Source of the DNA: a virus
Strand: one strand, 5' to 3'
Virus record (IMG/VR): IMGVR_UViG_3300043425_000575
Span: 1 to 39,909 of that record
DNA length: 39,909 nt
A program made the position numbers and the translations under genes. Every line of letters starts with the position of its first letter. Positions within the stretch are counted from its first letter, which is position 1. The notes under the pieces were generated by a model. It was not told where the DNA came from. It ran no database searches and saw only the letters and a program-made list of their open reading frames with translations. Below, in pieces: positions 1 to 39,657 of the stretch.

Positions 1-2
1 AG

Positions 3-1103
3 AGAGTAGTTGCAGAGAACACCGACAACTATCCTGCGTTGATAACCACGGACCCGAAAAGCAAGTTCGAAACGCCTAAGTTGTTTGAGAGCCTAGGGTT
101 TGAAACCTATCTTCAAATGAGCGGGTTTCACTACATGGTCAAAGGAAACCTGTCGGATGTACGAATGAAGCTATTGGCCCACGTGACCATGACTAACGTC
201 TGGATCACCACTAAGGGCGACTGGTTGCGCCTGAAGAAAGAGTGGAAAGCACGCATTGATGAGGCAGGCGAGCGGGCCGGAATTGCAAACGCCGGATACG
301 CAACTCGTGATGGCTGCTGGCAAGGAGAAAACGGGTACAGCAACGTTGTGAACACGCGGCGCCACGTCGATGAATCTGGCGAAGTCGTTGCAACCACCAA
401 GTCCCACAACGGGAACGCATCAGTGCTTGACCCGCTTGCGTGCGAAGTCATTGCGCGATTCTTCATGCCGAAGGGCGGTGGCAGGGTTTACAACCCGTTC
501 GGGGGTGGTGTTCAAATGGGCTACATCGCAGGGGCGTGCGGCTATGAATACCTAGCGAGCGAGATAAGGCAAAACCAGGTCGATGCGAACAACGCCATCT
601 GTTCGGAGTTCGATGGGCGCGTTAAGTGGATTCAGTCAGATAGTTCAAAGTACGAACCAGAGGGCAAATTCGATATGGTGTTCACTTGCCCGCCGTATTA
701 CAAGGTAGAGGAGTATCTTGACTACGATGGGAAACCGCCGCCAGGTGAGTTGAACTCAATTCCTACGTATGAAGAATTCTTGGCTCTACTATTCGCTGGC
801 TATCGAAAAGCAATCGACGCGCTTAACGACAACAGGTTTTTCGTCGTTATGACAGGAGACAGCAGAGACAAGAATGGCGCGTACTACTGCCACGAGGCCG
901 ACACTGAAACACTGATGCGAGACTGCGGCCTATCGGTATACAACCGTATCGTTTATGTCGAGGCTGAATTCACACGGCTGGCACACGCGAAGCGCACCCT
1001 GCACGTTCGCAAGTTCCCAAAGCGGGAGCAGAAAATCATTGTTGGCTACAAGGGGAAGATTGCCGACATCAAGAATCACTTCTTGCCTATCGGGAGACTG
1101 TGA
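3..1103 (+). CDS. C-terminal part of a GNAT-DNA methyltransferase fusion (5' end cut by window edge)
   Basis: The reading frame is open from base 3, and the first possible start (TTG at 39) has no ribosome site, so the true start lies outside the window. From that TTG, residues 152-157 (NPFGGG, nt 492-509) match the SAM-binding motif I of amino-methyltransferases. ASEIRQNQ follows as motif II, and TCPPYY at 216-221 is the catalytic (D/S/T)PPY motif IV. It is therefore probably an N6-adenine or N4-cytosine methyltransferase. The residues before this domain (ALITTDP, then KLFESLGFETY) look like the last strand and C-terminal helix of a GNAT acyltransferase. That half matches the gene cut at the right edge of the window. 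The stop overlaps the next start (TGATG). The methyltransferase call is firm; the GNAT fusion is inference. Confidence 0.8.
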   Translation, partial: RVVAENTDNYPALITTDPKSKFETPKLFESLGFETYLQMSGFHYMVKGNLSDVRMKLLAHVTMTNVWITTKGDWLRLKKEWKARIDEAGERAGIANAGYATRDGCWQGENGYSNVVNTRRHVDESGEVVATTKSHNGNASVLDPLACEVIARFFMPKGGGRVYNPFGGGVQMGYIAGACGYEYLASEIRQNQVDANNAICSEFDGRVKWIQSDSSKYEPEGKFDMVFTCPPYYKVEEYLDYDGKPPPGELNSIPTYEEFLALLFAGYRKAIDALNDNRFFVVMTGDSRDKNGAYYCHEADTETLMRDCGLSVYNRIVYVEAEFTRLAHAKRTLHVRKFPKREQKIIVGYKGKIADIKNHFLPIGRL

Positions 1104-1441
1104 TGAACTACTCTGACTTTGTAGCCGCACGCTTCACCAAGCGCCACACTGGCGACGACGGCCTGATGCACTGCGCAGTCGGAATCTCAGGAGAAGCCGG
1201 TGAGCTGCTGGACGCAGTGAAAAAGCTCTGGGTCTACGGCAAGCCCCTGGACCGCGCTAACGCCATCGAGGAGCTAGGCGACATCGAATGGTATATGGAG
1301 GCCCTGCGAGGGCTTCTAGGCGTCACCAGAGACGAAGTAATCGCGGCGAACGTGGCGAAGCTGGAGGTTAGATTTCCTATCCAGTATACTGACGAGCTTG
1401 CAATAGCAAGACTGGACAAGCAATGCGAAGAGAAGAAATAA
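1103..1441 (+). CDS. MazG-like nucleotide pyrophosphohydrolase
   Basis: A 112-residue all-alpha NTP pyrophosphatase of the MazG-like family, which hydrolyses nucleoside triphosphates to monophosphate and pyrophosphate. Phages often carry one, either to shape nucleotide pools or to blunt (p)ppGpp signalling. GEAGELLDAVKK (about residues 30-41) and EELGDIEWYMEAL (56-68) supply the paired ExxE and ExxD metal-binding motifs. ATG at 1103 shares its A with the upstream TGA; a GTG three bases earlier is less likely. The last residues (DELAIARLDK, then an odd QCEEKK) are nearly repeated at the end of the downstream HNH gene. This indicates that the original 3' end was displaced when the HNH gene entered. 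Confidence 0.85.
   Translation: MNYSDFVAARFTKRHTGDDGLMHCAVGISGEAGELLDAVKKLWVYGKPLDRANAIEELGDIEWYMEALRGLLGVTRDEVIAANVAKLEVRFPIQYTDELAIARLDKQCEEKK
1391..1425 (+). repeat. Left copy of imperfect direct repeat flanking the HNH gene
   Basis: About 35 bases encoding DELAIARLDK at the 3' end of the MazG-like gene recur at 1915-1949 as the last codons of the HNH gene, where they encode DELALARLDK. The first 11 bases are identical; the rest differ mainly at synonymous positions. The two copies lie 524 bases apart and are read in the frames of two different genes. Confidence 0.75.
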
Positions 1442-1950
1442 CTGCTGACCTTGTTAGATCTCTTATGGACTACAACGAAGAAACGGGTCTTTTGACATGG
1501 AAGATCAGAAGGGGAGGAACTGCAAATTCTGGGCGTGTCGTATCAACCGTTGCGAAAAATGGATATGTAGTTACGTCAATCAAAAACGTTAAGGTTTATG
1601 CGCATCGAATCGCGTGGCTTCACAAGACGGGGGAGATGCCGACAATGGAGATAGACCATATGAACGGCATCAGAACCGACAACAGGTTTTGCAACCTTAG
1701 ACTTGCCTCACGCTCATTGAATACGCAAAACATGCACAACAGGCGATCCGACAACCGCAGTGGTCATATTGGCGTGTCTTATCACAAAGCAACAGGGCTT
1801 TGGCGCTCAAGAATCCACTTGGGCGGGAAAGAGTATGCGGCGTACTTTAAGGAGATCGGCGACGCCGTTGCAGACAGGGAAAAGAAGAAAAAGCTTTTTC
1901 ACCCTGGTGCAGTTGACGAGCTTGCGCTTGCCAGATTGGACAAAGCATGA
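1423..1950 (+). CDS. HNH homing-type endonuclease with AP2-like DNA-binding domain
   Basis: A 175-residue HNH endonuclease. HRIAW at 61-65 and IDHMNGIRTDNRFCNLR at 77-93 form the beta-beta-alpha metal core, giving the H...DH...N signature. Residues 112-160 (GVSYHKATGLWRSRI onward) resemble the AP2-type DNA-binding domain common in phage HNH proteins. The start lies inside the end of the MazG-like gene, a 19-base overlap. The stop overlaps the next start as ATGA. Residues 163-175 duplicate the MazG-like C-terminus and are not part of the HNH/AP2 fold. The codons are more AT-rich than those of its neighbours (many AAA, AAT and ATA), consistent with a mobile origin. Confidence 0.88.
   Translation: MRREEITADLVRSLMDYNEETGLLTWKIRRGGTANSGRVVSTVAKNGYVVTSIKNVKVYAHRIAWLHKTGEMPTMEIDHMNGIRTDNRFCNLRLASRSLNTQNMHNRRSDNRSGHIGVSYHKATGLWRSRIHLGGKEYAAYFKEIGDAVADREKKKKLFHPGAVDELALARLDKA
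1915..1949 (+). repeat. Right copy of imperfect direct repeat flanking the HNH gene
   Basis: This is the second copy of the sequence at 1391-1425. Here it ends in a stop that overlaps the next gene start by ATGA, which is the usual junction in this operon. It is probably the original end of the MazG-like gene; the 1391 copy was re-created or converted during HNH insertion. Confidence 0.7.
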
Positions 1951-2141
1951 AGGACCGAGTCTATTGGCGCTGCCCGCACTGCTCCCACTCGTACAAATGG
2001 AAGTGGAACGAGCACGAAGCCGACCATGACGCGCCAATAGTCATGCAATGCGACGACTCCTGCAAGCGCGAAACAAAGGGCCGCATGTATCGCGTCGGAG
2101 AAGCGCGATATGCGGTTATCTTTGCGGAGAAAATGCCATGA
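1947..2141 (+). CDS. Small zinc-ribbon-like protein
   Basis: A 64-residue protein with a CPHC knuckle near the N-terminus (residues 9-12) and a CDDSC pair at about 35-39. This spacing is expected of a small Zn ribbon. The function is unknown; phage proteins of this type are often nucleic-acid-binding accessories. It starts by ATGA overlap with the HNH gene and ends by ATGA overlap with the next gene, so it is translationally coupled on both sides. Confidence 0.65.
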   Translation: MKDRVYWRCPHCSHSYKWKWNEHEADHDAPIVMQCDDSCKRETKGRMYRVGEARYAVIFAEKMP

Positions 2142-2344
2142 AGCAATCACAAGGCCGGCGCCTAATCGCCATGCTCAAGCGCAAGCCCATGTCCTACCTA
2201 GAGATGAACCTGACCGGCATCAGCGTATGCCCGCAGAAGCGAGTTGCCGAATGCCTACGGGAAGACGAGCGCATCATCAAGGCTAAGGACTCCAGCGGCA
2301 GGGTTCGGTGGCGGGTTGTTTCGGCGACGAAGTGGACCGCTTGA
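2138..2344 (+). CDS. Small winged-helix-like protein
   Basis: A 68-residue basic protein. The helical segment SYLEMNLTGISVCPQKRVAE followed by the beta-hairpin-like DERIIKAKDSSGRVRWRVV resembles a winged helix-turn-helix of the kind found in many short phage regulators. The start is the ATG at 2138, in ATGA overlap with the upstream stop. A longer reading from 2048 would overlap the upstream gene almost completely and is not preferred. The DNA target is unknown. Confidence 0.6.
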   Translation: MKQSQGRRLIAMLKRKPMSYLEMNLTGISVCPQKRVAECLREDERIIKAKDSSGRVRWRVVSATKWTA

Positions 2345-2345
2345 C

Positions 2346-2374
2346 TTGCGCATTTTGTCTACATGCGCGATAAT
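2346..2374 (+). promoter_or_regulatory. Possible sigma70-like promoter before the replication gene
   Basis: TTGCGC (2346-2351), a 17-base spacer and GATAAT (2369-2374) could start a transcript near 2381. The -10 matches five of six consensus bases but the -35 only three of six, so this is weak. The predicted leader of roughly 90 bases would contain the two inverted repeats listed next. Confidence 0.25.
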
Positions 2375-2473
2375 TCAACACGGACCCCGGCTTTACCTCG
2401 TCTGATCCACGAGGAACATAGTGAACCCCACACTCGCCGGCAAGTCTTTTCGTGGGGCGCATGGGATTCTTGA
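2363..2473 (+). CDS. 36-residue ORF coupled to the replication gene
   Basis: An uninterrupted ORF (MRDNSTRTPALPRLIHEEHS, then 16 more residues) whose TGA shares its A with the ATG of the DUF1376 gene (TGATG). This is the same junction type used elsewhere in the operon. It has no clear ribosome site of its own. It could be a real small protein, a leader peptide whose translation opens the downstream start, or chance. The coupled junction is the main argument for it. Confidence 0.35.
   Translation: MRDNSTRTPALPRLIHEEHSEPHTRRQVFSWGAWDS
2396..2457 (+). promoter_or_regulatory. Two inverted repeats in the leader before the replication gene
   Basis: CCTCGT (2396-2401) pairs with ACGAGG (2409-2414) around a 7-base loop. 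CCCCAC (2426-2431) pairs with GTGGGG (2452-2457) around a 20-base loop. The second stem ends 16 bases before the ATG at 2473, so it could affect access of ribosomes to that start. The same region can also be read as the 36-residue ORF, so the pairing may be incidental. Confidence 0.3.
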
Positions 2474-3291
2474 TGTCTTTTGCTTACATGCCCTTTTACA
2501 CCGGAGATTACTACCGGGACACGCGGCATTTATCCATGCTTCAGCATGGCGCATATAGGCAGTTACTAGATCATTGTTGGGACCAAAAAGGCCCGCTTCC
2601 GCTTGATATGACGCGGTGCTTTCGCATTTGCGGCGCGGTATCAAAGGAAGAACAAGACGCGGTCTATGGCGTGATTGCAGAGTTCTTTGTGCGAATGGAA
2701 GACGGGCATTACAACCGCCGTATGCAGCGCGAGATAGAGCGAGCCGCATCAGTGTCTGGCGCTAGATCGGATGCAGCGCACACTAGGTGGAAGGCTAGAG
2801 AATCCATCCGCAGCATTGATGCTGCATCGCGGGATGCAAATGCAATGCAAGTGCATAGCAAGAGCAATGCAAGTGCTGCATCCCCATCCCCATCCCCATA
2901 CCCATCCCCATACCAAGAAAACCTAGATGCTACGCATCTTGTGCCCGCTGCTGCGCAGCAGGCCCGAATTCCGCGATGCCCTACAGAGGAAATCATTAAA
3001 TCCTTTCACAAGCATCTGCCAATGCTTCCTGCTGTCGTCGTCGTCAATGCAAGCCGCAAAGCTGCGATAAGCGCAAGGTGGCGTGAAGTGGTAACAACAG
3101 ACAAGATGGGTTTGGAAGCCGGCATTGAATGGTTCGATTGGTTTTTCGCGCACGCCGCCAAGTCTCGATTCCTTACAGGCAGGACTACTTCAAGGGATGG
3201 CAGATCGTGGCACGCTGATCTGGATTGGCTAATGAAGCCTGTCAACTTCGCCAAGACAATCGAAGGCAACTACCATAAGGAGGCAGCATGA
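2473..3291 (+). CDS. DUF1376 (YdaU-like) replication-module protein
   Basis: A 272-residue protein whose N-terminus (about 1-85: FAYMPFYTGDYYRDTRHLS, then LQHGAYRQLLDHCW) is the DUF1376/YdaU domain. This domain occurs in O-like replication initiators of lambdoid phages and prophages. The middle (about 115-155) is a low-complexity Ser/Pro linker with PSPSPYPSPY. The C-terminal part has a tryptophan-rich helical segment (IEWFDWFFAHAAKSRFLTG, then WHADLDWLMKP) typical of phage replication proteins. ATG 2473 is chosen because DUF1376 proteins start just before this motif and GGGA sits 6 bases upstream; ATG 2461 is an alternative. No helicase or polymerase gene is nearby, so host replication proteins are probably recruited. 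Confidence 0.78.
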   Translation: MSFAYMPFYTGDYYRDTRHLSMLQHGAYRQLLDHCWDQKGPLPLDMTRCFRICGAVSKEEQDAVYGVIAEFFVRMEDGHYNRRMQREIERAASVSGARSDAAHTRWKARESIRSIDAASRDANAMQVHSKSNASAASPSPSPYPSPYQENLDATHLVPAAAQQARIPRCPTEEIIKSFHKHLPMLPAVVVVNASRKAAISARWREVVTTDKMGLEAGIEWFDWFFAHAAKSRFLTGRTTSRDGRSWHADLDWLMKPVNFAKTIEGNYHKEAA

Positions 3292-3605
3292 GTTACGGAA
3301 TTGCGAAGCAGCGCAGAGAGGTGGCCGAACCGGAGCGCCCGATCAGTTACCGATGCCCTGCGAATGGTTGCCCTAACGCGGCTAGCGTTTCGTTTGATGG
3401 ATCAAGATGGGCTTGCTACTTTCACGCTAAAGCAGAGTCAGAAGACTGGCCCGCTACGACGCAATGGATCGGCGAGAACTGGCCGAGGGCGTGCAATTGG
3501 AACCATCCTGATAAGGTTGCATACGAAGCCGAGCAAGCTGCAAAGCGCAGAGCAAAACTAAAGCAAAACGGCTCCAGCATTGGTGGATTCGGCTTGCTGC
3601 CATGA
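3288..3605 (+). CDS. Cysteine-containing hypothetical phage protein
   Basis: A 105-residue protein with a putative zinc site: CPANGCPN at about 24-31, then WACYFHA at about 42-48 (C, C, C, H). The C-terminal third is basic and helical (AKRRAKLKQNG). A strong ribosome site, AGGAGG, precedes ATG 3288, and the start overlaps the previous stop. It lies between the replication protein and the ninG region, where lambdoid phages carry small nin-type proteins. Function unknown. Confidence 0.65.
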   Translation: MSYGIAKQRREVAEPERPISYRCPANGCPNAASVSFDGSRWACYFHAKAESEDWPATTQWIGENWPRACNWNHPDKVAYEAEQAAKRRAKLKQNGSSIGGFGLLP

Positions 3606-3898
3606 CACTCCCCGCATGCGCTGGAGGATGGTGCAAAAAGCGCGAGCAATGCGCCGACTACCATGCCGTACACCGGACATCCATTGTCGAGCGGCTGTGC
3701 CCAAAAGGCCAGGATGAACCGGAGTATCCGGGTGTTATGCGGCGCCAGTTGCGGCCTGGATCAGTGGAAGTCACGAAGATCCGCTTATCCAAAAAAGCTA
3801 GGGGGCTTGCCGAAGTGCGCGGAATCTGGGCGCCAAAAGATCAGCACGAAATGATTAAGGCCAGTAAAGCAAAGGAAAATGCAGTCAAACCAAGCTGA
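3602..3898 (+). CDS. Cysteine-rich N-terminus hypothetical protein
   Basis: A 98-residue protein starting by ATGA overlap. Residues 1-35 carry CAGGWCKKREQCADYH and a further cysteine (RLCPKG), suggesting a small metal-binding N-terminus. The rest is basic and lysine-rich. It overlaps the start of ninG by 20 bases. Small proteins with this look occur beside ninG in other phages, but no function can be assigned. Confidence 0.6.
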   Translation: MTLPACAGGWCKKREQCADYHAVHRTSIVERLCPKGQDEPEYPGVMRRQLRPGSVEVTKIRLSKKARGLAEVRGIWAPKDQHEMIKASKAKENAVKPS

Positions 3899-4400
3899 AT
3901 GCGCAATCTGCCAGCGGCCGTTTACGCGCATGAATTCGCTACAGACTGTGTGCGGCATCAGGTGCGCCGCGAAAGTGGCTCCAAAGGCCCGCAAAGAGGC
4001 CGCAAAGGCACTTCGGGAAAGGCGGGAAGCTGCAAAGCCGCGCGGCAAATGGTTGCAGGAGGCTCAAGCGGCATTCAATGCATACATCCGCAAGCGCGAC
4101 GAAGCGATGCCGTGCATCAGTTGCGGTCGGTTCCATGAGGGCCAGTGGCATGCTGGGCACTACTTATCCACAGGAGCACGGCCCGAGCTTCGATTCGACG
4201 AGCAGAATTGCCACAAGCAATGCCAGCCGTGCAATACGCATCTGCACGGCAATCTCGTGATGTACCGCGCCGAGTTGATCCGCCGCATCGGCTTAGCGAA
4301 AGTGGAAAAGCTAGAAGGACCTCACCAGCTGTGTAAATGGACGGTAACGGACTTGAAAGCGATTCGTGACGATTACCGGGCAAAGGGAAAAGCACTGTGA
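3879..4400 (+). CDS. ninG: NinG/Rap-like recombination nuclease
   Basis: A 173-residue member of the NinG (lambda Rap) family, which cleaves branched DNA such as Holliday junctions and D-loops during phage recombination. The N-terminus has a zinc knuckle (CAICQRPF, then CGIRCAAK). The core has CISCGR, the HAGHY motif, ARPELRFDEQN, then CHKQCQPCNTHLHGN and LIRRIG. All of these are hallmark NinG segments. Length is slightly below the approximately 200-residue norm. It works logically with the ERF and NinB genes on the opposite strand, although it lies about 31 kb away. Translation is coupled to the methyltransferase gene that follows. Confidence 0.92.
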   Translation: MQSNQAECAICQRPFTRMNSLQTVCGIRCAAKVAPKARKEAAKALRERREAAKPRGKWLQEAQAAFNAYIRKRDEAMPCISCGRFHEGQWHAGHYLSTGARPELRFDEQNCHKQCQPCNTHLHGNLVMYRAELIRRIGLAKVEKLEGPHQLCKWTVTDLKAIRDDYRAKGKAL

Positions 4401-5083
4401 GCGCCTATTACAACGAAATCGACAAGTTCGCGGCGCAGTGGCTACGCAACCTGATTGCAGCCGGGCATATTGCACCCGGCGACGTTGACACAAGGAGCAT
4501 CGTCGATGTCAGACCTGACGACCTGCGCGGATACACACAATGCCACTTCTTCGCAGGCATTGGAGGATGGAGCTACGCCCTGCGGCTTGCAGGATGGCCA
4601 GATGACCGACCTGTTTGGACAGGCTCTTGTCCCTGCCAACCGTTCAGCAGCGCCAGCGGCGGGAAAGACAAGAGGCACGAAGACGATCGGCATCTCTGGC
4701 CTGTTTGGGCACGGATCATCGCTGCAAGCAAACCTCGAGCGGTCTTTGGCGAGCAGGTTGTCGATGCAGGAGATTGGATTGATTGGGTCTGCGATGACTT
4801 GGAAGCACTGGGTTACCAAGTCGGGGCGTGTGTTCTCCCGGCTTGTGCTGTCGGTTTTGACCATGCGCGCCCTCGGATTTACTTTGCAGGCCACGCCGAC
4901 ATGCACGGCGAACCAAGGATCGCCAGCGATGCGCAGCAAGTGGCCGGGGTGCCGCGACATAGAGGTGTCAAACAGGAGTTGGCGCTCGAGGATGGGCTAC
5001 CCCGTCGAATGGGCGCAATGCGAGCCTACGGCAATGCCATCGTCCCGCAGGTCGCCGCCAAATTCATAGAGGCAACACTGTGA
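4397..5083 (+). CDS. DNA C5-cytosine methyltransferase
   Basis: A compact 228-residue C5-cytosine methyltransferase. Motif I is FAGIGGWS (52-59). Motif IV is CPCQPFS (78-84), with catalytic Cys80. Motif VI appears as GEQV (118-121) in place of the classic ENV. Motif VIII is ARPRIYF (157-163) and motif X is YGNAIVPQVA (211-220). The target-recognition region between VIII and X is very short, and specificity cannot be read from it. Such phage enzymes usually protect DNA from host restriction. It starts at GTG 4397 by GTGA overlap with ninG. A second long ORF with its own ribosome site runs inside this gene in another frame. Confidence 0.9.
   Translation: MSAYYNEIDKFAAQWLRNLIAAGHIAPGDVDTRSIVDVRPDDLRGYTQCHFFAGIGGWSYALRLAGWPDDRPVWTGSCPCQPFSSASGGKDKRHEDDRHLWPVWARIIAASKPRAVFGEQVVDAGDWIDWVCDDLEALGYQVGACVLPACAVGFDHARPRIYFAGHADMHGEPRIASDAQQVAGVPRHRGVKQELALEDGLPRRMGAMRAYGNAIVPQVAAKFIEATL
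4492..4497 (+). promoter_or_regulatory. Ribosome binding site inside the C5 methyltransferase gene
   Basis: AAGGAG lies 8 bases before the internal ATG at 4506, an optimal Shine-Dalgarno arrangement. It serves no start in the methyltransferase frame, so it directly supports translation of the overlapping ORF. Confidence 0.55.
4506..5069 (+). CDS. Overprinted ORF within the C5 methyltransferase gene
   Basis: A 187-residue ORF read in a different frame from the methyltransferase and wholly contained in it. It starts at ATG 4506 behind AAGGAG with an 8-base spacer. It begins MSDLTTCADTHNAT. It contains TDLFGQALVPANRSA, LASRLSMQEIG, MTWKHWVTKSGR and, near the end, MGYPVEWAQCEPTA. From memory, phage proteins with the segments 'SRL...TWK...SGR' and a terminal 'MGYPxEWxxCxPTAxxSS' are annotated beside or over dcm genes in many phages, so it may be a genuine overprinted gene. 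Composition is Ser/Thr/Ala-rich. No function is known. Confidence 0.5.
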   Translation: MSDLTTCADTHNATSSQALEDGATPCGLQDGQMTDLFGQALVPANRSAAPAAGKTRGTKTIGISGLFGHGSSLQANLERSLASRLSMQEIGLIGSAMTWKHWVTKSGRVFSRLVLSVLTMRALGFTLQATPTCTANQGSPAMRSKWPGCRDIEVSNRSWRSRMGYPVEWAQCEPTAMPSSRRSPPNS

Positions 5084-16265: not shown

Positions 16266-17270
16266 ATGTTCGGCGCCAAATACTTCGGCGCACGATACTT
16301 CGGCGGCCGATTCTTCGGGCACTATGGAGAGGCATCTCCATTTGTGCTCGGCGTCTACATGGGGCCGAGGTATTTCGGCCTCAGGTATTGGAATCAGCGG
16401 TTTGTCGATAGTGTCGATGGAGCCTATTCTGGCTCGCGCTTCTTTGCCAACAGGTACTTTGGGCTACGGTACTTCGGCGCGAATCAGACTTCTGATCCGT
16501 TTGAGCTTGCGCAGTCTCAAGGGCTCGCGGGATCAGGCATTGGATCGTTTTCTAGCCTCGCTCTGACATACGGATCAGACAAGGCAATTGCGCAGACAAA
16601 CACGCTGGCTGGGTCAGGTATTGCCGGTATTACGGCTTTGCTGAGTTATGAGAATGAAGATTGGGCGTTCACGCCACCGCTTGAGCTAACCCCGGCAATC
16701 GGGGTTGGTGCGCTTGCTTGCGATCTTGAGTTTATAGAGCCAACAACTGGCGGCGCGGGGCGGTATTTTGGATCGCGCTATTTTGGTCCTAGGTACTTTG
16801 GCCCTCGATATTGGAGCACCCTATATGGATGGAATCTTGAGCAAACGGCGGGGCTTGCTGGAGTAGGCGCAGGCACAATTTCCGCAGGGATAGGGCTCGG
16901 CATTGTGTTTGCGCCGACTCAGGCGTTTGCTGCTATTGGCACCGGAACTTATGCGGCCGGCCTATCGTATGTAGACCCGCCGCCAGTCATTCCAGAATCT
17001 GAGGCTGTAGGGTTCTGGCCGGAATACATGCCTCACAAACGCAAGCGAAAGAAGGCCGACGAACCTGATTCCGCTGAAGAAATGGAGGCTGTCGCTGAAG
17101 TCGCCGCGCCGCAGCGCGAGAAGCTGACCATCAAGCGGGCAAGGCCAGTGATTCAAGTGCAGAAGGTTGAAACGGTCGCAGACAAGATTGAGCGCATCGC
17201 AATTGACCGAGCAAAGAGGGAGAGAAAGCGCAAGAAGGATATGGAAGAAAAGTTACTGATGATGGATTGA
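16266..17270 (+). CDS. YFGxR-repeat protein with basic C-terminal tail
   Basis: A 334-residue protein with a five-residue repeat of the form R-Y-F-G-x in four clusters: residues 5-18, 33-45, 58-71 and 165-183 (the last is GRYFGSRYFGPRYFGPRYW). Between clusters lie Gly/Ala-rich hydrophobic segments (LAGSGIGSFSSLAL; LAGVGAGTISAGIGLGI). From about 250 the sequence changes to a strongly charged Lys/Arg/Glu helical tail, with KRKRKK and a final KRERKRKKDMEE. Short clusters of similar aromatic-arginine repeats occur at the N-terminus of small phage proteins near structural genes; four clusters in one protein is unusual. The Shine-Dalgarno is weak. It is probably structural; the role is unknown. Confidence 0.65.
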   Translation: MFGAKYFGARYFGGRFFGHYGEASPFVLGVYMGPRYFGLRYWNQRFVDSVDGAYSGSRFFANRYFGLRYFGANQTSDPFELAQSQGLAGSGIGSFSSLALTYGSDKAIAQTNTLAGSGIAGITALLSYENEDWAFTPPLELTPAIGVGALACDLEFIEPTTGGAGRYFGSRYFGPRYFGPRYWSTLYGWNLEQTAGLAGVGAGTISAGIGLGIVFAPTQAFAAIGTGTYAAGLSYVDPPPVIPESEAVGFWPEYMPHKRKRKKADEPDSAEEMEAVAEVAAPQREKLTIKRARPVIQVQKVETVADKIERIAIDRAKRERKRKKDMEEKLLMMD

Positions 17271-32840: not shown

Positions 32841-33034
32841 AACCCGTAGACCTGACTACCGGATTGCAGTGTGGCCAAGAGCCGATTACAGGCGACAAAG
32901 AGATCATCAAGGGCTACCTAGTCACATTGCCGGATGGGCATGAGTGCAGGCTAGGCCCGGACTTGACTCGAGCGCAGAACTACGCGGCGCAGAATCATTC
33001 GGCTCTGATAGAGCCTATGTACGTCAGGCGCTAG
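32837..33034 (+). CDS. Small hypothetical protein ending the plus-strand operon
   Basis: A 65-residue protein starting by ATGA overlap. The sequence (GDKEIIKGYLVTLPDGHECR, then LTRAQNYAAQNHSALIEPMY) suggests a small alpha-beta fold. It is the last gene of the long rightward block. Its TAG lies within a palindromic CGCTAGCG that also carries the stop of the opposing gene. The function is unknown. Confidence 0.55.
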   Translation: MKPVDLTTGLQCGQEPITGDKEIIKGYLVTLPDGHECRLGPDLTRAQNYAAQNHSALIEPMYVRR

Positions 33035-33036
33035 CG
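33029..33036. other. Palindromic shared stop of convergent genes
   Basis: CGCTAGCG is a perfect palindrome. TAG at 33032-33034 ends the rightward gene and the reverse complement of CTA at 33031-33033 ends the leftward gene, so both operons stop inside one 8-base motif. A nearby GGCTCT/AGAGCC inverted repeat (33001-33015) has no T-run, so no intrinsic terminator is evident here. Confidence 0.7.
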
Positions 33037-33258
33037 TTTCTCCTGCGCTGCTTTGCGGGCATGCTTCTCTGCCTTGCGACGGTCAACTGCCGCGTTGTGC
33101 TCGGCAATCTCGCGCTGTAATTCCGTGTCCATCTTCGGCGGTGTGCTTCGGTGCGTATGACCTTGCCCTGCATCGTGCAACCTCTGCACATGTTTTGGGA
33201 TGTCGCGTCCGGTAGCGGCGAGCAACATGGCTGCGGCAAGTAGCCCTGCGTTTCTCAT
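33031..33258 (-). CDS. Small protein with possible signal sequence
   Basis: A 75-residue protein. The N-terminus MRNAGLLAAAMLLAATGRD resembles a short secretion signal or membrane anchor. The remainder is charged and helical, ending AEKHARKAAQEKR. AGGAG lies 9 bases upstream. There is no lipobox cysteine, so it is not an Rz1-type lipoprotein. It is the last gene of the leftward operon. A role at the cell envelope is possible but unproven. Confidence 0.5.
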   Translation of the reverse strand: MRNAGLLAAAMLLAATGRDIPKHVQRLHDAGQGHTHRSTPPKMDTELQREIAEHNAAVDRRKAEKHARKAAQEKR

Positions 33259-33260
33259 AA

Positions 33261-33842
33261 CTACTTCTCCTGCGCTGCTGCGAGTACGGCACGGGCTGAA
33301 GCAACAGCCTCACGTAAACGGGTTCGCCCTTCTGGTGTTGTCGGACTTACACCAAACAGGACGCTGCCAAGCGCCGCCTCCAGTTCCGCAATGCGCGCGG
33401 CTTGCTGGTTGGTCTGTTCACCAGTGGGTTGTCCCACTGGATCGGCTGCGCCCGAAACTGATTTTGTGGGTAGCTGTAAAGGCCACGCTTCCCAGCTAGG
33501 CGTGTCGCTCAGCAGCGACTTTCCAAAGGGTGTTGCCATACCCCACACATCGGAAACTCCAACTGTGTCGGCTGCGCCCGAAACTGGTTGTGGAACAACA
33601 TTCGGCAGCCCAAAGTAGCGCCTCAATGCCTTGACGCGCTTCAGCTCGGCCTTCAGTTGTTCGCACATCGCAATAGTCTCGCTGCGGCGCTCGTTGCATT
33701 CGGCAAGCTCGGCCTGCAGTGCATCGGTCGCTGCGGCTACGCAGGCGTCGGCGTGGGCTTGCACTTGGTCTGCGGAATACTCGGCGTCAAAACTGTGCCG
33801 GCGACTCTCCGGCAGTGCCGGCTTGGTGTAGTCATTGGTCAT
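33261..33842 (-). CDS. Coiled-coil paralogue 1 (AARIAELE family)
   Basis: A 193-residue protein beginning MTNDYTKPALPESRR behind AGGAGG. It contains a coiled coil (ATDALQAELAECNERRSETI, then MCEQLKAELKRVKALRRY), a linker with two SGAAD(T/P)VG repeats, and the C-terminal AARIAELEAAL...AVASARAVLAAAQEK. Both ends are shared with other genes in this strand block (see 34298-34591, 34842-35135 and 35132-35377). The function is unknown; such proteins are common and poorly characterised in phages. A longer reading from 33893 is not supported, since the ribosome site points to 33842. Confidence 0.65.
   Translation of the reverse strand: MTNDYTKPALPESRRHSFDAEYSADQVQAHADACVAAATDALQAELAECNERRSETIAMCEQLKAELKRVKALRRYFGLPNVVPQPVSGAADTVGVSDVWGMATPFGKSLLSDTPSWEAWPLQLPTKSVSGAADPVGQPTGEQTNQQAARIAELEAALGSVLFGVSPTTPEGRTRLREAVASARAVLAAAQEK
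33807..33834. repeat. 28-base perfect direct repeat, copy 1
   Basis: The 28 bases here are identical to 34559-34586 and encode the shared N-terminus (DYTKPALPE) of two paralogous leftward genes. The repeat includes an internal inverted repeat CCGGC-AGT-GCCGG. Perfect identity, including third codon positions, points to recent duplication or gene conversion. A shorter 12-base match lies at about 34282-34293 in a third gene. Confidence 0.85.
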
Positions 33843-34128
33843 TGCCTGCCTCCTCGATTTGCAGCAACTTGACAGCATCTTCCATCCGGCCAAGGATTAG
33901 CGCGTCAGCTATTGCCGCACGCTTCGACCTGTGCGCTTGACGTTGCCTGTCGCAGTGCGCGTCGTTCTTTTCTTCCCACTCCCGCACAACCTTCTCTGCG
34001 GCCAGAACCTTCGCCGACTTCGGCAACGCTTTGGTTTTTGGGAACTGCAGCGCAAGCATCCGCTGCTGAACCAGCTTCACGCGCTCCCTGTAGGGCAGCA
34101 GCGTGATGTTTTCGGTCTTGGTGATCAT
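33832..34128 (-). CDS. Basic helical hypothetical protein
   Basis: A 98-residue Lys/Arg-rich protein (ENITLLPYRERVKLVQQRML, then LAAEKVVREWEEKNDAHCDR). It is likely all-helical. CAGGAGA lies before its ATG at 34128, which overlaps the previous stop as ATGA. It overlaps the start of the next gene by 11 bases. It could bind nucleic acid; no family is recognised. Confidence 0.6.
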   Translation of the reverse strand: MITKTENITLLPYRERVKLVQQRMLALQFPKTKALPKSAKVLAAEKVVREWEEKNDAHCDRQRQAHRSKRAAIADALILGRMEDAVKLLQIEEAGNDQ

Positions 34129-34301
34129 GTCTTCTCCTGTTCGCTAGGCAGTCGCCTGTCAAGAACGGTTGTCGAGTGCTCCATTCCGCCTGAGCTGTCC
34201 ACGATGATCGTGATGCGCTGCTTGAACGACGACGCTATCAACTCCGCCAAGTCAGCCAGCACTTGGTGCGGATCTGGAGGAGGCTTGGTGTAGGTTGTCA
34301 T
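34125..34301 (-). CDS. Small 58-residue protein
   Basis: An ORF of 58 codons beginning MTTYTKPPPDPHQV and ending with DRRLPSEQEKT. It overlaps both neighbours by 4 bases (ATGA at each end), which strongly supports it as real despite its size. Its opening resembles the DYTKPALPE opening of two neighbouring paralogues. The centre (FKQRITIIVDSSGGMEHSTT) suggests two strands. Function unknown. Confidence 0.7.
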   Translation of the reverse strand: MTTYTKPPPDPHQVLADLAELIASSFKQRITIIVDSSGGMEHSTTVLDRRLPSEQEKT

Positions 34302-34591
34302 TTGCTGCTCTCCTTGGGCGCCAGGACTGCGCGGGCAATCCTGACAATTTCTTTCAGGGCCTTGCCGTCGCTCATCGTGTTCGATGGCTCTTCAAGAATC
34401 TTGCGCAGAGCCGTCTCCATCTCCGCAATGCGTGCAGCCTGGGCTTGCATGGCTTGCACGCCCCGCATAAACGCAGCATCTAGTGCGTTGCGATATTGCT
34501 GCGGCGACAGTTCTACCCTGCCGCTTTTCTCGGTATGCACTGCACCCCAGCAAGGAGGCTCCGGCAGTGCCGGCTTGGTGTAGTCAGTCAC
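34298..34591 (-). CDS. Coiled-coil paralogue 2 (AARIAEME family)
   Basis: A 97-residue protein starting at GTG 34591 with GGAGA 8 bases upstream. It shares the N-terminal TDYTKPALPE with the gene at 33261-33842 and the C-terminal pattern QAARIAEMETALR...IARAVLAPKE with three other leftward genes. The middle (YRNALDAAFMRGVQAMQAQA) is helical. Function unknown. Confidence 0.65.
   Translation of the reverse strand: MTDYTKPALPEPPCWGAVHTEKSGRVELSPQQYRNALDAAFMRGVQAMQAQAARIAEMETALRKILEEPSNTMSDGKALKEIVRIARAVLAPKESSK
34559..34586. repeat. 28-base perfect direct repeat, copy 2
   Basis: Second copy of the 28-base sequence at 33807-33834, separated by 752 bases and in the same orientation. Recombination between the copies would delete three small genes. 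Confidence 0.85.
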
Positions 34592-34842
34592 TATGCGTTC
34601 TCCGATATTCCATTAGCCAGCCCAAGTGCGCGCACTTTTTCATTGAAGTACAGTTTCGGGCCACCTTTAGGCGGCTGGTATGAAAACGGCGCCAAACTGG
34701 AACACGCCTTGATTCTGCGTAGGCAACAAGGACCAACCGGAACCCGACGCCCGCCATCATCTTCAAGGCAAGCAGTCAGGATGAATTCGCGTGTGCCCTT
34801 TGTGCGCTTTCCGCAGGCGTAACAGGTGTATGGGCCTATCAT
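34591..34842 (-). CDS. Zinc-finger-like hypothetical protein
   Basis: An 83-residue protein with YTCYACGKRTKG (CxxC) near the N-terminus and PVGPCCLRRI about 30 residues later, a likely four-cysteine zinc site. ATG 34842 has AGGAG 8 bases upstream and overlaps the preceding stop (TGATG); GTG 34845 is an alternative. The C-terminus (KLYFNEKVRALGLANGI) is helical. Function unknown. Confidence 0.6.
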   Translation of the reverse strand: MIGPYTCYACGKRTKGTREFILTACLEDDGGRRVPVGPCCLRRIKACSSLAPFSYQPPKGGPKLYFNEKVRALGLANGISENA

Positions 34843-35135
34843 CACACTTTCTCCTTTGGTTCAAGGGCTGCGCGGGCAGCTTCCAGTGCTTTGCCTGCGT
34901 AGTAATCCCCTGCGTCTACAGGCTCATGCCCATCGGCCCAGGCGCCGTGGTCAACATTAGACCCACACATACAGTAGCCAGTGCTCGTATCGCTTCGCTC
35001 TAGACATCCAAAGCACTGTCTCAGCGCCGCCTCCAACTCCGCAATGCGCCTGGCTTGCGCTTCCAGTGCGTCGTCGGCTGCAACGCAGCGAGGCATGCCC
35101 ATGATGCGCAGGATCGTTGTCAGTTCTTCGTTCAT
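34842..35135 (-). CDS. Coiled-coil paralogue 3 (ARRIAELE family)
   Basis: A 97-residue protein behind AAGGAG, starting by ATGA overlap. It opens NEELTTILRIMG, then AADDALEAQARRIAELEAALR, and closes with KALEAARAALEPKEKV. Between these it has a cysteine-containing insert (CFGCLERSD, then CMCGSN) that could bind zinc. It is most similar to the adjacent gene at 35132-35377. Confidence 0.62.
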   Translation of the reverse strand: MNEELTTILRIMGMPRCVAADDALEAQARRIAELEAALRQCFGCLERSDTSTGYCMCGSNVDHGAWADGHEPVDAGDYYAGKALEAARAALEPKEKV

Positions 35136-35377
35136 GCCCTCTCCTTGGGTGCTAGGGCTGCGCGGGCGGCTGCGGCCCAGTGCGAATAGGGGTGCGTGAA
35201 TCCGTCGCCGGTCGCCCCGGCTTCGTGCTCGTCTAGCACGGTGACGACCATGCGCAGCGCCCCTTCCAACTCCGCAATGCGCGCAGCCTGTGCTTCAAGG
35301 GCATCTGCGGCGCGGAAGCAATCAGGCAAGCCTTCGGCGCCTAGACGGCGCAAAGCTGAAATCAGGCCATCATTCAT
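35132..35377 (-). CDS. Coiled-coil paralogue 4 (AARIAELE family)
   Basis: An 81-residue protein starting at the ATG at 35377 (GGAGA upstream) and overlapping the NinB gene by 8 bases. It opens NDGLISALRRLG, then AADALEAQAARIAELEGALR, and closes with WAAAARAALAPKERA. It lacks the cysteines of paralogue 3. The longer reading from 35425 lies inside ninB and is not supported. Confidence 0.62.
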   Translation of the reverse strand: MNDGLISALRRLGAEGLPDCFRAADALEAQAARIAELEGALRMVVTVLDEHEAGATGDGFTHPYSHWAAAARAALAPKERA

Positions 35378-35774
35378 CGTGATTCTCCGAAAACGTAACG
35401 CCATGCTGTGCGCCGAATGCATCAATCAAGTCCATAACTTCCCCTAGTTCCGCCTTGCTCATTTTGCTGGTGCTCTGCCCTAGAACCACAAACCCGCCAT
35501 CAATCCCAGGAACAGCGCGCTGCTTTTTGAGCGACGCAGTGAAGACGTTCTTCCAGTCGTCGGCATCGAGCTTTTGACCGTGCCATTCAACCTGCTTAGC
35601 CACTTCTCCTAGCATGGCCCACATGCGGGAGTTTTGAGGCAGCGAGCGCGTTTCTTCCCCAATCGTCAACTTGAACCGCTGCCCGGCAATCAATCGAGGC
35701 TTTAGCCATTCATACAACTTGCGCAGCGTTTCGTGCGCTTGCTGTGCGTTGACTAGCGTTGTCTGATGTGCCAT
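35370..35774 (-). CDS. ninB: NinB recombination protein
   Basis: A 134-residue member of the NinB (lambda Orf-like) family. This recombination mediator helps load annealing proteins on single-stranded DNA coated with SSB. SLPQNSRMWAMLGEVAKQVE (about 44-63), ADDWKNVFTASLKKQ (about 71-85) and GFVVLGQSTSKMSKAELGEV (about 94-113) are conserved family blocks. The length matches lambda NinB (about 146). It follows the ERF gene by 15 bases, forming an annealing module. No Shine-Dalgarno is obvious. Confidence 0.92.
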   Translation of the reverse strand: MAHQTTLVNAQQAHETLRKLYEWLKPRLIAGQRFKLTIGEETRSLPQNSRMWAMLGEVAKQVEWHGQKLDADDWKNVFTASLKKQRAVPGIDGGFVVLGQSTSKMSKAELGEVMDLIDAFGAQHGVTFSENHDE

Positions 35775-35789
35775 GAATGTGCAGAGCGG

Positions 35790-36449
35790 CTACTTGTGTG
35801 CGGGCTTATCAGAACCATGCTCGCGCACATAGGCCCGTTCCGGCGAAGTCAATCCAGCCCAAACACCCGCCGCGAATTCATCGCCAGCTTCTCGTGCGGC
35901 TTCCCATTCCTCACGCACGCCCATAGGCCGATCATTGGCAACGTGCGCTTGGATGTTGTTCCGGCACTTCATTACAAGGGTGCGGTTCACTGGCTCTACT
36001 TGGTGTGTCTCTGCGTCGGCATCAGGATTGCCTTCAGTCGGTATGGCGAAAGTTTGGAATGCCGCGTATTTGTATGCCGCAGACATTGCCTTGTTCGTTG
36101 CCTTGTCGCCGCTATCCATAGCTTCGCCAAATGTGCGGGCCGTGTGCTTGCTGCCGTCAATCGCGCTCACAAAGTCAAACTCCGCCTCAACTGTGACGTA
36201 GAACAAAGCACCGCCGCTTTTGCTTTGCCGTTCTTCGCATGAGCGGGTGAGCATGCGCGGGATGATGCATAAGCCGTGCTCTGCAAGCAAAGGGGAAATT
36301 GCGTTGTAAACATCGTCAATGCCGCGAAACTTATATCCGCTGCCTTGAGTGTTCACGCGATCTTTCGTGATGCCGGTAATGGAGAGTGCTTTTTGCACTG
36401 CGTTGATTGCTTGATATACGTTCACGTCAGTCCCTACGGTTGATTGCAT
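35790..36449 (-). CDS. erf: ERF-family single-strand annealing protein
   Basis: A 219-residue recombinase of the ERF superfamily (P22 Erf type), which anneals complementary single strands for recombination and genome circularisation. The conserved N-terminal block VYQAINAVQKALSITGITKD, then GYKFRGIDDVYNAISPLLAE, HGL and FGEAMDSGDKATNKAMSAAY-KYA are family hallmarks. ATG 36449 starts immediately before the conserved domain; a longer reading from 36581 overlaps the preceding gene. It works with NinB (next gene) and NinG. The C-terminus is charged. Confidence 0.92.
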   Translation of the reverse strand: MQSTVGTDVNVYQAINAVQKALSITGITKDRVNTQGSGYKFRGIDDVYNAISPLLAEHGLCIIPRMLTRSCEERQSKSGGALFYVTVEAEFDFVSAIDGSKHTARTFGEAMDSGDKATNKAMSAAYKYAAFQTFAIPTEGNPDADAETHQVEPVNRTLVMKCRNNIQAHVANDRPMGVREEWEAAREAGDEFAAGVWAGLTSPERAYVREHGSDKPAHK

Positions 36450-36624
36450 CGGTTCCGCTATTCGCGCTGGCGATCTGGTCAAGTTGATACGACTCTGCGG
36501 TGTCATCTTGCGCATGCTCTGCGTACCGTTCGGCCCACGTTTGTTCGTCATCGTCGTTGGCGGCGACTTCAAACGGTTCACGCTTTGCCCGCGCGGCTTG
36601 TCGGATGTGTCTAGGTCTGCTCAT
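36427..36624 (-). CDS. Small acidic hypothetical protein upstream of erf
   Basis: A 65-residue protein. The basic N-terminus (SRPRHIRQAARAKREPF) is followed by an acidic, probably helical body (NDDDEQTWAERYAEHAQDD). It overlaps erf by 23 bases. AAGGG precedes its ATG. It is the first gene after the 107-base gap, so it may open a transcription unit containing erf and ninB. Function unknown. Confidence 0.55.
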   Translation of the reverse strand: MSRPRHIRQAARAKREPFEVAANDDDEQTWAERYAEHAQDDTAESYQLDQIASANSGTDAINRRD

Positions 36625-37350: not shown

Positions 37351-37493
37351 TGCTGCCTCACTGAGTAGGTAAACACAGAGAACATCGAAGCCGCAAGAAG
37401 TCGCGCTTCGTTCATCGCGTCATCGCGCTCGAACGCGATAAGCGCGTATCGACGGGTGATCCGGTCGGGGCCGGTGATGTGAGCGATGAACAT
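37347..37493 (-). CDS. 48-residue hypothetical protein
   Basis: A short ORF (MFIAHITGPDRITRRYALIA, then FERDDAMNEARLLAASMFSV) coupled on both sides: TGATG with its upstream neighbour and ATGA with the downstream one. GGAGA lies 7 bases before its start. No membrane segment or known family. The two coupled junctions make it likely to be translated. Confidence 0.65.
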   Translation of the reverse strand: MFIAHITGPDRITRRYALIAFERDDAMNEARLLAASMFSVFTYSVRQQ

Positions 37494-37786
37494 CAGGCTT
37501 CTCCGGTCGCGCGTTGGATTGCTTCTCGTGCTAAGTCAACGTCGCGCATAGAAATGCAGTGGTTCATTACCGAGCCGTCAAAATAGGCAAGGTCTTTGTC
37601 AACCAGACGCTTAAGCGCATCAAGCAACTCAGGAGCGGCGGCAATCAGCCTGGCGTCTGCTTCTGTTAAGTGCTCGGCAACCCTGAAATGTCCTCCGGCG
37701 GCGAGCACTTCGTAGACATATTCAGGATGTTCGCCTCCACTGTCGCCGACAAGTTCCGATACCCAAGTTCCTGGAGTGTGTTTCAT
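37493..37786 (-). CDS. Hypothetical protein of the 'EADARLIAAAPELL' phage family
   Basis: A 97-residue protein. It opens KHTPGTWVSELVG and contains EADARLIAAAPELLDALKRL. This pair of segments is widespread in small phage and prophage proteins of unknown function (typically 'TPGPW...EANARLIAAAPELLEAL'). The C-terminus is helical (VDLAREAIQRATGEA). It starts by ATGA overlap. It is well recognised as a family, but no biochemical role is known. Confidence 0.8.
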   Translation of the reverse strand: MKHTPGTWVSELVGDSGGEHPEYVYEVLAAGGHFRVAEHLTEADARLIAAAPELLDALKRLVDKDLAYFDGSVMNHCISMRDVDLAREAIQRATGEA

Positions 37787-38689: not shown

Positions 38690-38854
38690 ATGACAACCGA
38701 ACCATGCACACAAAAGCAGCGAGCAGACATCGTGCGAGCCGCTGAACAGCGAGCGCATTACATCCTGTGGATCGCCGAGAAGTTGACGATCACGGACGAC
38801 GCGCTCATTCGCAAAGAGGCGGCGAAGCTGCTTCGGGAACTGGTGGGCAAGTGA
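38690..38854 (+). CDS. Small helical hypothetical protein
   Basis: A 54-residue charged helical protein (MTTEPCTQKQRADIVRAAEQ, then RAHYILWIAEKLTITDDALI). The upstream ATG at 38633 would give 73 residues; 38690 gives the more natural N-terminus, though neither has a Shine-Dalgarno. The stop overlaps the next start (GTGA). It is the first gene of the rightward block that leads towards the methyltransferase gene at the other window edge. Confidence 0.55.
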   Translation: MTTEPCTQKQRADIVRAAEQRAHYILWIAEKLTITDDALIRKEAAKLLRELVGK

Positions 38855-39657
38855 AGCGCCGATACGCTCCTATTCTCACTGCGGACGTTAACCGCAAGGG
38901 CGTGCTAGACATTGACACCGTGAAGGGTTGCTCCGGTGGAATTGCAGCGAATGGCGAACGCGGTTGCTATGGCGCATGTTACGCAGAAGCGATTGCAAAG
39001 TATCGTGGCATTGACTTTGCGCAACCAGTTAGCCGAAAGGTAACGACACATGCACAAGCCAAGCAAATAGAGGACGCTGTTAAGGCCGCGCCGCAACACT
39101 TCTTTCGTGTGGGCACGATGGGCGACCCAAGCCATGATTGGTCTGAAACCGTTGACACTGTTGAATGGCTGTCTGCATGGGCTACGCCGATTGTCGTGAC
39201 GAAGCATTGGCTGCGAGCCAGCGATGAACAATTCCGCAGGCTTGCAAGTGTCGGTGCGGTGCTAAATACTTCGGTTTCGGCGCTCGACACCACGGCACAA
39301 CTTGCGCATCGTGAGCGGCAAATTGCGCGCTACACGGAAGCGGGCGGGCATAGCGTTTCGCGGGTGGTGTCATGCGACTTTACTGATGCTGATATGCGCG
39401 CCACTCAGTCTCGGCTGCTGGCAGCGCCGGGAGCTATCGACAACCCGCTGCGGATCGCGCAATCACACCCGCTGGCCCGTGACGGCGTTGTGAAGCTAAA
39501 GACAACCATCGACATCAAGACGCGCCGAACTATTTCAATCGCGTCAGATACAGCTTACGTCGGGCACTGTGCAACGTGTCCCGATCAATGCGGCATGAGT
39601 TCCATGCCGTCAACTATCGGCCATCGCGCCGATCTTTTCCAGGAGAGCAAGCAATGA
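38851..39657 (+). CDS. Cysteine-rich putative Fe-S / metal protein, DNA-modification candidate
   Basis: A 268-residue protein starting at GTG 38851 (GTGA overlap). It opens KRRYAPILTADVNRKGVLDI, then VKGCSGG...GCYGACYAEAIAKYRG with three cysteines, and ends with a second cluster, CATCPDQCGMS (C-x2-C-x3-C). The middle has RVGTMGDPSHDWSETVDTVEWL, PIVVTKHW and VLNTSVSALD, arranged like successive strands of a TIM-type barrel. The plan recalls radical-SAM-like proteins, but the classic CxxxCxxC is not present, so Fe-S binding is inference. It is translationally coupled to the GNAT-like gene that follows, suggesting the two act together. Confidence 0.7.
   Translation: MKRRYAPILTADVNRKGVLDIDTVKGCSGGIAANGERGCYGACYAEAIAKYRGIDFAQPVSRKVTTHAQAKQIEDAVKAAPQHFFRVGTMGDPSHDWSETVDTVEWLSAWATPIVVTKHWLRASDEQFRRLASVGAVLNTSVSALDTTAQLAHRERQIARYTEAGGHSVSRVVSCDFTDADMRATQSRLLAAPGAIDNPLRIAQSHPLARDGVVKLKTTIDIKTRRTISIASDTAYVGHCATCPDQCGMSSMPSTIGHRADLFQESKQ

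Follow-up and report, generated by a model that had tools for sequence, protein, structure and literature searches.

An array of small phage genes with shared joints

We analysed the IMG/VR virus record IMGVR_UViG_3300043425_000575, a stretch of 39,909 bases referred to here as the window, in which a leftward run of small genes on the minus strand had been noted, four of them (here P1 to P4) for a shared coiled-coil tail and a fifth (P5) lying between two of these. These genes probably form a translationally coupled array of small early genes that is diversified by recombination at short joints common to its members. A full member would consist of a start, an N-module, a core joint (RIAELExAL, in the middle of a long helix), a C-module and a tail joint. 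The tail joint would in turn comprise a short helix (ARAAL), codons that double as a Shine-Dalgarno (SD) sequence and a stop codon overlapping the next start. The joints are conserved at synonymous sites, the modules are combined independently of one another, and near-identical phages differ by clean swaps that are bounded by the joints.

Module swaps between near-identical phages

Relatives of the array were collected by a scan with the array sequences, which gave 61 loci, and by a second scan, which gave 21, some of them identical contigs. Recruitment was by the core pattern, and nearly all of the relatives are metagenome assemblies; duplicates (L001, L134, L128-L130 and L140) were excluded from the counts. 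When two of the contigs, L162 and L192, were compared over 3.7 kb, 3262 alignment columns showed 98.3% identity, and four segments diverged, two to the left of the array and two inside it. One gene has a different C-module in the interval from CTGAAACCGTTTGCTGAC to GCCGCCCGCGCCGCTTATCTGGGAGAGAAGGATGA; two genes further on, a different N-module stands between the start and the core. For the first swapped gene, the respective proteins of L162 and L192 are also held by L163 and L194, which come from other samples. In a third near relative, L219, the second swapped gene carries the N-module of L192 with a C-module nearer to that of L162. The earlier suggestion that modules between common ends are exchanged is supported by these swaps, mostly outside the window, and inside it by the chimeric gene P2 described below.

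Apparent swaps of this kind could also arise if short shared joints misled metagenome assemblers into joining different genes, an idea that gains from the origin of the relatives and from the repetition of the joints within each genome. We consider it highly improbable. Sequencing reads are usually longer than about 45 bases, and the joints, at about 45 bases, were judged to fall below the usual read length. The same chimera was found in contigs of different samples (L162/L163, L192/L194 and L172/L173), the reading frame is open across every counted joint, and the C-module of P2 is 67–79% identical on different fronts, which is impossible for a fresh artefact.

Independent combination of modules in the relatives

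With a rule requiring both core and tail we obtained 77 hits, corresponding to 56 unique proteins from 50 loci. Among their 1540 protein pairs, relatedness was confined to the N-module in 73 and to the C-module in 23, and it extended to both in 14, at score thresholds of 40 (N) and 22 (C) that compare with maxima of 18.5 (N) and 15.5 (C) in 400 codon-shuffled pairs; one of the 23 C-module-only pairs is false (L141/L142, alternative start). Similarity stops 0–16 bases after the core in the 73 pairs and 0–11 bases before it in the 23, and in one pair of the pool 159 of 159 N-module bases are identical beside unrelated C-modules. Clustering of 55 proteins, from which L142:3059 was left out, resulted in 32 N-clusters and 42 C-clusters in 48 combinations, with at least two partners for every one of the multi-member clusters (four N and four C). 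The N-modules are mosaic too, since the largest N-cluster is chained through a common middle part. The window is tied to this pool by P3 and P4, which match pool proteins at 5.5e-7 to 8e-5 in a small database.

Single-copy relatives that show no exchange, which would have spoken against the preliminary description, are not what emerged: at least two members are present in 47 of 81 loci. This survey of tails includes overlapping stretches of one contig among its loci, and its rule admits some false hits, such as an antisense open reading frame (ORF) in L145. In the phage record MW202613 (ctOK67), five members lie within 1.9 kb; two of them have N-modules that are 85% identical over 89 bases and different C-modules, and two members have an exact 27-base stretch of tail in common. 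MW202748 has the same length as MW202613 and the corresponding genes in reverse orientation; the two records are probably duplicate deposits of one genome. The longest array, with ten tail-bearing genes in 5 kb, was seen in L155 (positions 1-5031, plus strand). One C-module, DMADEYDAAFPRPLNICLAEYPEDY, occurs with differing fronts before it in L139 (36104-36361), L147 (675-1055) and L172 (4167-4640), its carriers being a Manatee Spring phage and IMG/VR metagenome phages.

Could the genes simply be old paralogues, produced by tandem duplication, whose middles drifted while the helix and the end stayed under purifying selection, with no exchange at all? P3 and P4 are similar from end to end, with 40% identity, and the window's own lineage shows no exchange in any close relative. 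For the relatives this explanation is already contradicted: drift cannot yield 159 of 159 identical N-module bases beside unrelated C-modules, phages that are 98.3% identical have whole modules replaced, and the synonymous sites of the joints are conserved as well. Overall, we regard duplication without exchange as rather unlikely.

P2 as a module chimera

Judged by its sequence, P2 (34298..34591, minus strand; 97 aa) is a module chimera. It combines a DYTKPALPE start and the core RIAEMETAL (34406..34432, minus strand) with a C-module, EEPSNTMSDGKALKEIVRIARAVL, that is common to other phages. This C-module (NTMSDGKALKEI..IAR) was found in seven viral contigs behind differing fronts, namely a leucine-rich front (L002, L003 and L131), a shorter one (L132 and L133), PVAYIN..PLYTTPPA (L004) and the HTPGPW front of phrog_1273 (L005). 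Six of these ORFs were compared with P2, L133 being left out as its ORF has the same reading as the one in L132. Nucleotide scores with all six were 37–49.5 for the C part of P2, at 67–79% identity, and 10.5–18 for the front half of P2, about the shuffled level; this front half had a match in no relative. In L002, L003 and L005 the similarity to P2 starts 23–29 bases into the 27-base core, which corresponds to the core end. Within the window, independent inheritance of N- and C-modules with a break at the core was seen for P2 only.

A fifth tail of the array type, of the helix-loop-helix kind, is present in the window outside the run, in the phrog_1273 (HTPGTW) protein at 37493..37786 (minus strand; phrog_1273, 7.7e-15). 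This gene is a member of phrog_1273, and P1-P4 have no match to that family. The last approximately 45 positions of phrog_1273 also match proteins with unrelated fronts (L004 at 2.6e-5, L132 at 4.3e-5).

Conservation of the joints as DNA

The joints are conserved beyond their amino acids. In the 52 proteins from outside the window, the synonymous choice in the core was ATC in 48 of 52 cases (background 0.29) and CTG in 45 of 51 (background 0.15), and AARAA was encoded by one and the same 15-mer in 39 of 45; the script used for the joint codons examined the last 20 bases. Protein pairs that are unrelated in both modules nevertheless have exact runs of at least 23 bases in the core (165 of 1141 pairs, 14%) and in the tail (240 of 1141, 21%), compared with 0 of 1141 in the controls.

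Within the window, all four genes originally named, as well as a 58-residue gene (P5), proved to be open genes on the minus strand, and the RIAELExAL helix and the AR-A-L end were confirmed in all four. The core joints lie at 35255..35281 in P4 (RIAELEGAL), 35022..35048 in P3 (RIAELEAAL) and 33369..33395 in P1, all on the minus strand. Their codons, with those of P2, agree at 28 of 36 positions; the mean for random synonymous choice is 19.7, and none of 5000 draws reached the observed value. As this agreement goes beyond what the residues need, common descent of the window tails looks likelier than convergence.

Relatedness of the window proteins was also scored against 1000 shuffles for each pair. 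The Z scores were 19 for P3-P4, 13 for P2-P4, 12 for P1-P2, 7.5 for P2-P3 and 5 for P1-P4, values that no shuffle reached; P1-P3 was weaker, with a Z score of 3.4 that 8 of 1000 shuffles reached. P1 and P2 have in common the first nine codons, which belong to a repeat, the core and the tail. This 28-base repeat encodes DYTKPALPE and is perfect, as reported, and unique, with one copy in P1 (33807..33834, minus strand) and an exact match in P2 (34559..34586, minus strand). No other exact direct repeat in the whole window is as long, and in 200 simulations of the region with an order-2 Markov model repeats did not exceed 15 bases. Each copy contains a 13-base palindrome, CCGGCAGTGCCGG, that occurs only in these two places. 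The start peptide YTKPALPE had only two matches in the collection viral_contigs, neither of them at an apparent gene start, and the repeat thus seems to be a local feature.

In principle the likeness of the genes could be convergent, given that RIAELExAL is the kind of motif common in coiled coils and that AAGGAG is a common ribosome-binding site. What the relatives match in Pfam, PHROG and PADLOC does look scattered and generic for coiled coils, and the SD sequence accounts for the KE of the ends. Set against this, the codon agreement is far over the synonymous expectation both in the window (0 of 5000 draws) and in the relatives, where 39 of 45 carry one identical AARAA 15-mer. Convergence is very unlikely.

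The shared gene end as a ribosome-binding site

From 35377 to 33258, every gene of the leftward run overlaps or almost touches the next. A few bases before the next start, the last codons contain AAGGAG in P4, P3 and P2 and CAGGAG in P5 and P1. Since these are the SD sequences of the next overlapping or adjoining genes, the PKE-like ends are not merely a protein feature; the 'PKE' end is, at least in part, a ribosome-binding site. The tail joint of P4 (35140..35171) holds the ARAALAPKE codons with the AAGGAG that is the SD of P3, that of P3 (34850..34881) has the AAGGAG of the gene at 34591-34845, and that of P2 (34309..34340) has the AAGGAG of P5, all on the minus strand. An SD sequence together with a start at the stop was found in 99 of 109 unique tails from the relatives and the window, and in the window it applies to P1-P5. 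The PKE-like ends described earlier are present in P2-P4 but not in P1, which ends AAAQEK. The gene at 33031-33258 has a CAGGAG end like that of P1 but is itself the last leftward gene, which gives the impression that a gene downstream of it was lost.

A possible route of exchange

We propose that the joints of different genes or phages undergo homologous recombination or annealing and that the swaps arise in this way; single-strand annealing would be a plausible route. Because the joints preserve the frame, the helix register, the ribosome-binding site and the overlap, a swap would yield a translatable chimera. The likeliest agent, where present, would be a phage annealing recombinase. In the window, an Erf-type single-strand annealing protein (35790..36581, minus strand; PF04404, 1.7e-19; phrog_155, 1.3e-35) is encoded upstream of the array, and a NinB/Orf recombination mediator (35370..35774, minus strand; PF05772, 4.1e-41; phrog_72, 6.7e-39) directly upstream of it in the same leftward run. 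According to PMC3945230, Rad52-like phage recombinases drive mosaicism, with a contribution of orf, Erf of phage D3 recombines diverged DNA, and Red-beta has a minimal pairing length of 23–27 bases. Tentatively, phages would draw on a common pool of half-modules with standard DNA joints, a core that codes for helix and an end in which helix codons, ribosome-binding site and overlapping start are combined, and their own annealing recombinases would continually make in-frame, translatable chimeric early proteins, across unrelated phages and without a dedicated enzyme; we hold this wider scheme to be possible, though somewhat short of an even chance.

Several observations weigh against exchange at the joints, or narrow its reach. 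Exact runs within the window are 11–18 bases in the cores and 5–14 in the tails, below the Red-beta minimum, and the 28-base repeat is the one exact match long enough to exceed it. The cores and tails of the window array have drifted, which makes the array look older. Among 30 array records, many of them fragments, Erf was found in six, NinB in two and RecT in none, so that the Erf-NinB link is not general and no single recombinase covers all arrays; host RecA or other annealing proteins are possible agents. Of the 120 loci recruited through NinB or Erf, two carry such a tail and the other 118 lack it, which makes arrays a minority trait. The conservation of the core residues reflects sample selection, given recruitment by the core pattern, a reservation from which the synonymous and the tail conservation are exempt. 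The metagenomic origin of nearly all array relatives counts here as well. In the lineage of the window phage itself, for which a near relative is missing, no swap was seen. Finally, searches of Pfam, PHROG, NCBIfam, PADLOC and folds gave no known family or fold that explains the function of the proteins. As a marker for annealing proteins we also considered phrog_97, which was dropped as it matches 14 of 14 control genomes.

Variable parts between constant ends are similar in outline to the products of dedicated diversification devices, in which a reverse-transcriptase retroelement, an invertase or an integron creates the variants. The differences seen here are whole unrelated modules and not point changes. 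Reverse transcriptase (PF00078) and serine resolvase/invertase (PF00239) were found in 0 of 9 records, integrases and attC sites not having been searched in this connection. Of all the explanations considered, we give such a device the smallest chance.

Predicted structure and function of the products

An AlphaFold2 model of P4 (mean pLDDT 84) has helices at residues 3-14, 19-54 and 65-75, that is, a long helix holding the core between two short ones, the second of which, at ARAAL, follows a loop. On this model the core joint would lie in mid-helix, and the C-module would form the connection between two helices. The L219 protein gave a similar model of lower quality (mean 77). Less firmly, the products would be helical, probably self-associating accessory proteins, and our guess is that the variable parts contact changing host targets, in takeover or anti-defence. 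NCBIfam gave no match for P1-P5, and the fold search none at an E-value of 0.001 or better. PADLOC matches of the array proteins were scattered and were judged to be generic coiled-coil matches.

Relation to known mosaic proteins

By analogy, the closest known kind is that of the Ea22 mosaic proteins. In the part of PMC10834534 considered here, Ea22/Ead proteins of lambdoid and Stx phages are described as mosaic, with a common front and coiled coil and unrelated C-terminal domains, and two Ea22 variants can occur within one EHEC genome. Full-length protein of this family is characterised as tetrameric, with a pro-lysogenic effect. The likeness, early-region coiled-coil phage proteins with a common front and a swapped C-terminal part, concerns design and not membership. 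Whereas Ea22/Ead exchanges the C-terminal part in that account, the array swaps both halves, its members overlap, and the gene end holds the SD of the next gene. Membership was assessed with profiles. The Ea22/Ead profile, PF13935, which we take to be that family, had no match in P1-P4 at an E-value of up to 1. In a scan of 44 members (P2-P4 and 41 relatives, 41 of 48 relatives having been used in the alignment and profile scan), Ea22/Ead was not among the best 25 of 41 families.

Sharing of fragments among otherwise unrelated phage proteins, including recent swaps of high identity, has been reported (Smug et al. 2023, PMC10684548). The examples in the part of that paper considered here are neck, tail-fibre, lysis, nucleotide and replication proteins, and small tandem genes shuffled at DNA joints are not among them. 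The studies of Rad52-like recombinases (PMC3945230; PMC2327257) offer a mechanism, annealing over short or diverged homology, including by Erf and aided by Orf (NinB). In the portions drawn on, they deal with exchange among lambdoid phages, prophages and test genes, whereas the joints of the array are internal to genes. In the open-access literature we found no description of joint-bounded arrays. Boundary sequences of the lambdoid nin region, and SD sequences that constrain the ends of overlapping genes, have been the subject of earlier work.

Relative to known phage mosaicism, the new elements are the array, the exchange of both halves and DNA-conserved joints that include translation signals. 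Phage mosaicism has mostly been described by gene or domain; in the array the points of exchange can be located to the base, and they fall within small genes arranged in tandem, at sequences with a second role in translation. This would offer a concrete and testable route by which phages make new proteins quickly, and may explain many small unclassified early genes with similar ends. It also cautions against grouping these genes by their similarity as a whole, which will mislead. More generally, module swapping suggests a simple natural way to new protein combinations.

Genes of the array and genome context

All genes of the run are on the minus strand. P4 (35132..35377; 81 aa) has an N-module (LISALRR..AADALEAQ), the core, a variable part and the end AARAALAPKERA, and P3 (34842..35135; 97 aa) is its paralogue over the full length, with a longer variable part. 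Between P3 and P2 lies an 84-aa gene (34591..34845) with the cysteine pairs CYAC and CCLR, which lacks the array-type tail and matched nothing in Pfam or PHROG. P5 (34125..34301; 58 aa) had been credited with a shorter version of the shared start; its start, MTTYTKP, is similar but diverged, and core and tail are absent. A 98-aa gene (33832..34128) lies between P5 and P1 and overlaps both, with no Pfam match and only weak PHROG matches. P1 (33261..33842; 193 aa) has the DYTKPALPE start, the core RIAELEAAL and the end SARAVLAAAQEK. The last gene of the run (33031..33258; 75 aa) ends in AAQEKR, encoded by 15 exact bases in common with the end of P1.

A megablast search against phages found no near relative of the window phage, and thus no exchange or insertion can be dated in the window itself. 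We found no relative of P3 among viruses, no tblastn match of P1, P2 or P4 in phages, and no confirmed relative in two scans of bacterial genomes. Among near phage records, the tail match is absent from PBR31, MW202867, MW202475 and MW202573, and MW202613 has an array. Between the window phage and Xanthomonas phage PBR31 the large terminases show 62.5% identity; the annotation of PBR31 includes an integrase, a repressor and tail tubular proteins. Since relatives of the terminase carry P22-type gene annotations, we infer that the window phage is P22-like.

Two further genes of the window, both on the plus strand, were recorded. The gene at 38767-39657 encodes a 296-aa protein with clustered cysteines (GCSGG, GCYGACY and CATCPDQCG) and no Pfam or PHROG match. 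In the structural half, the gene at 16266-17270 encodes a protein rich in RYFG-type repeats (MFGAKYFGARYFGGRFFG...).

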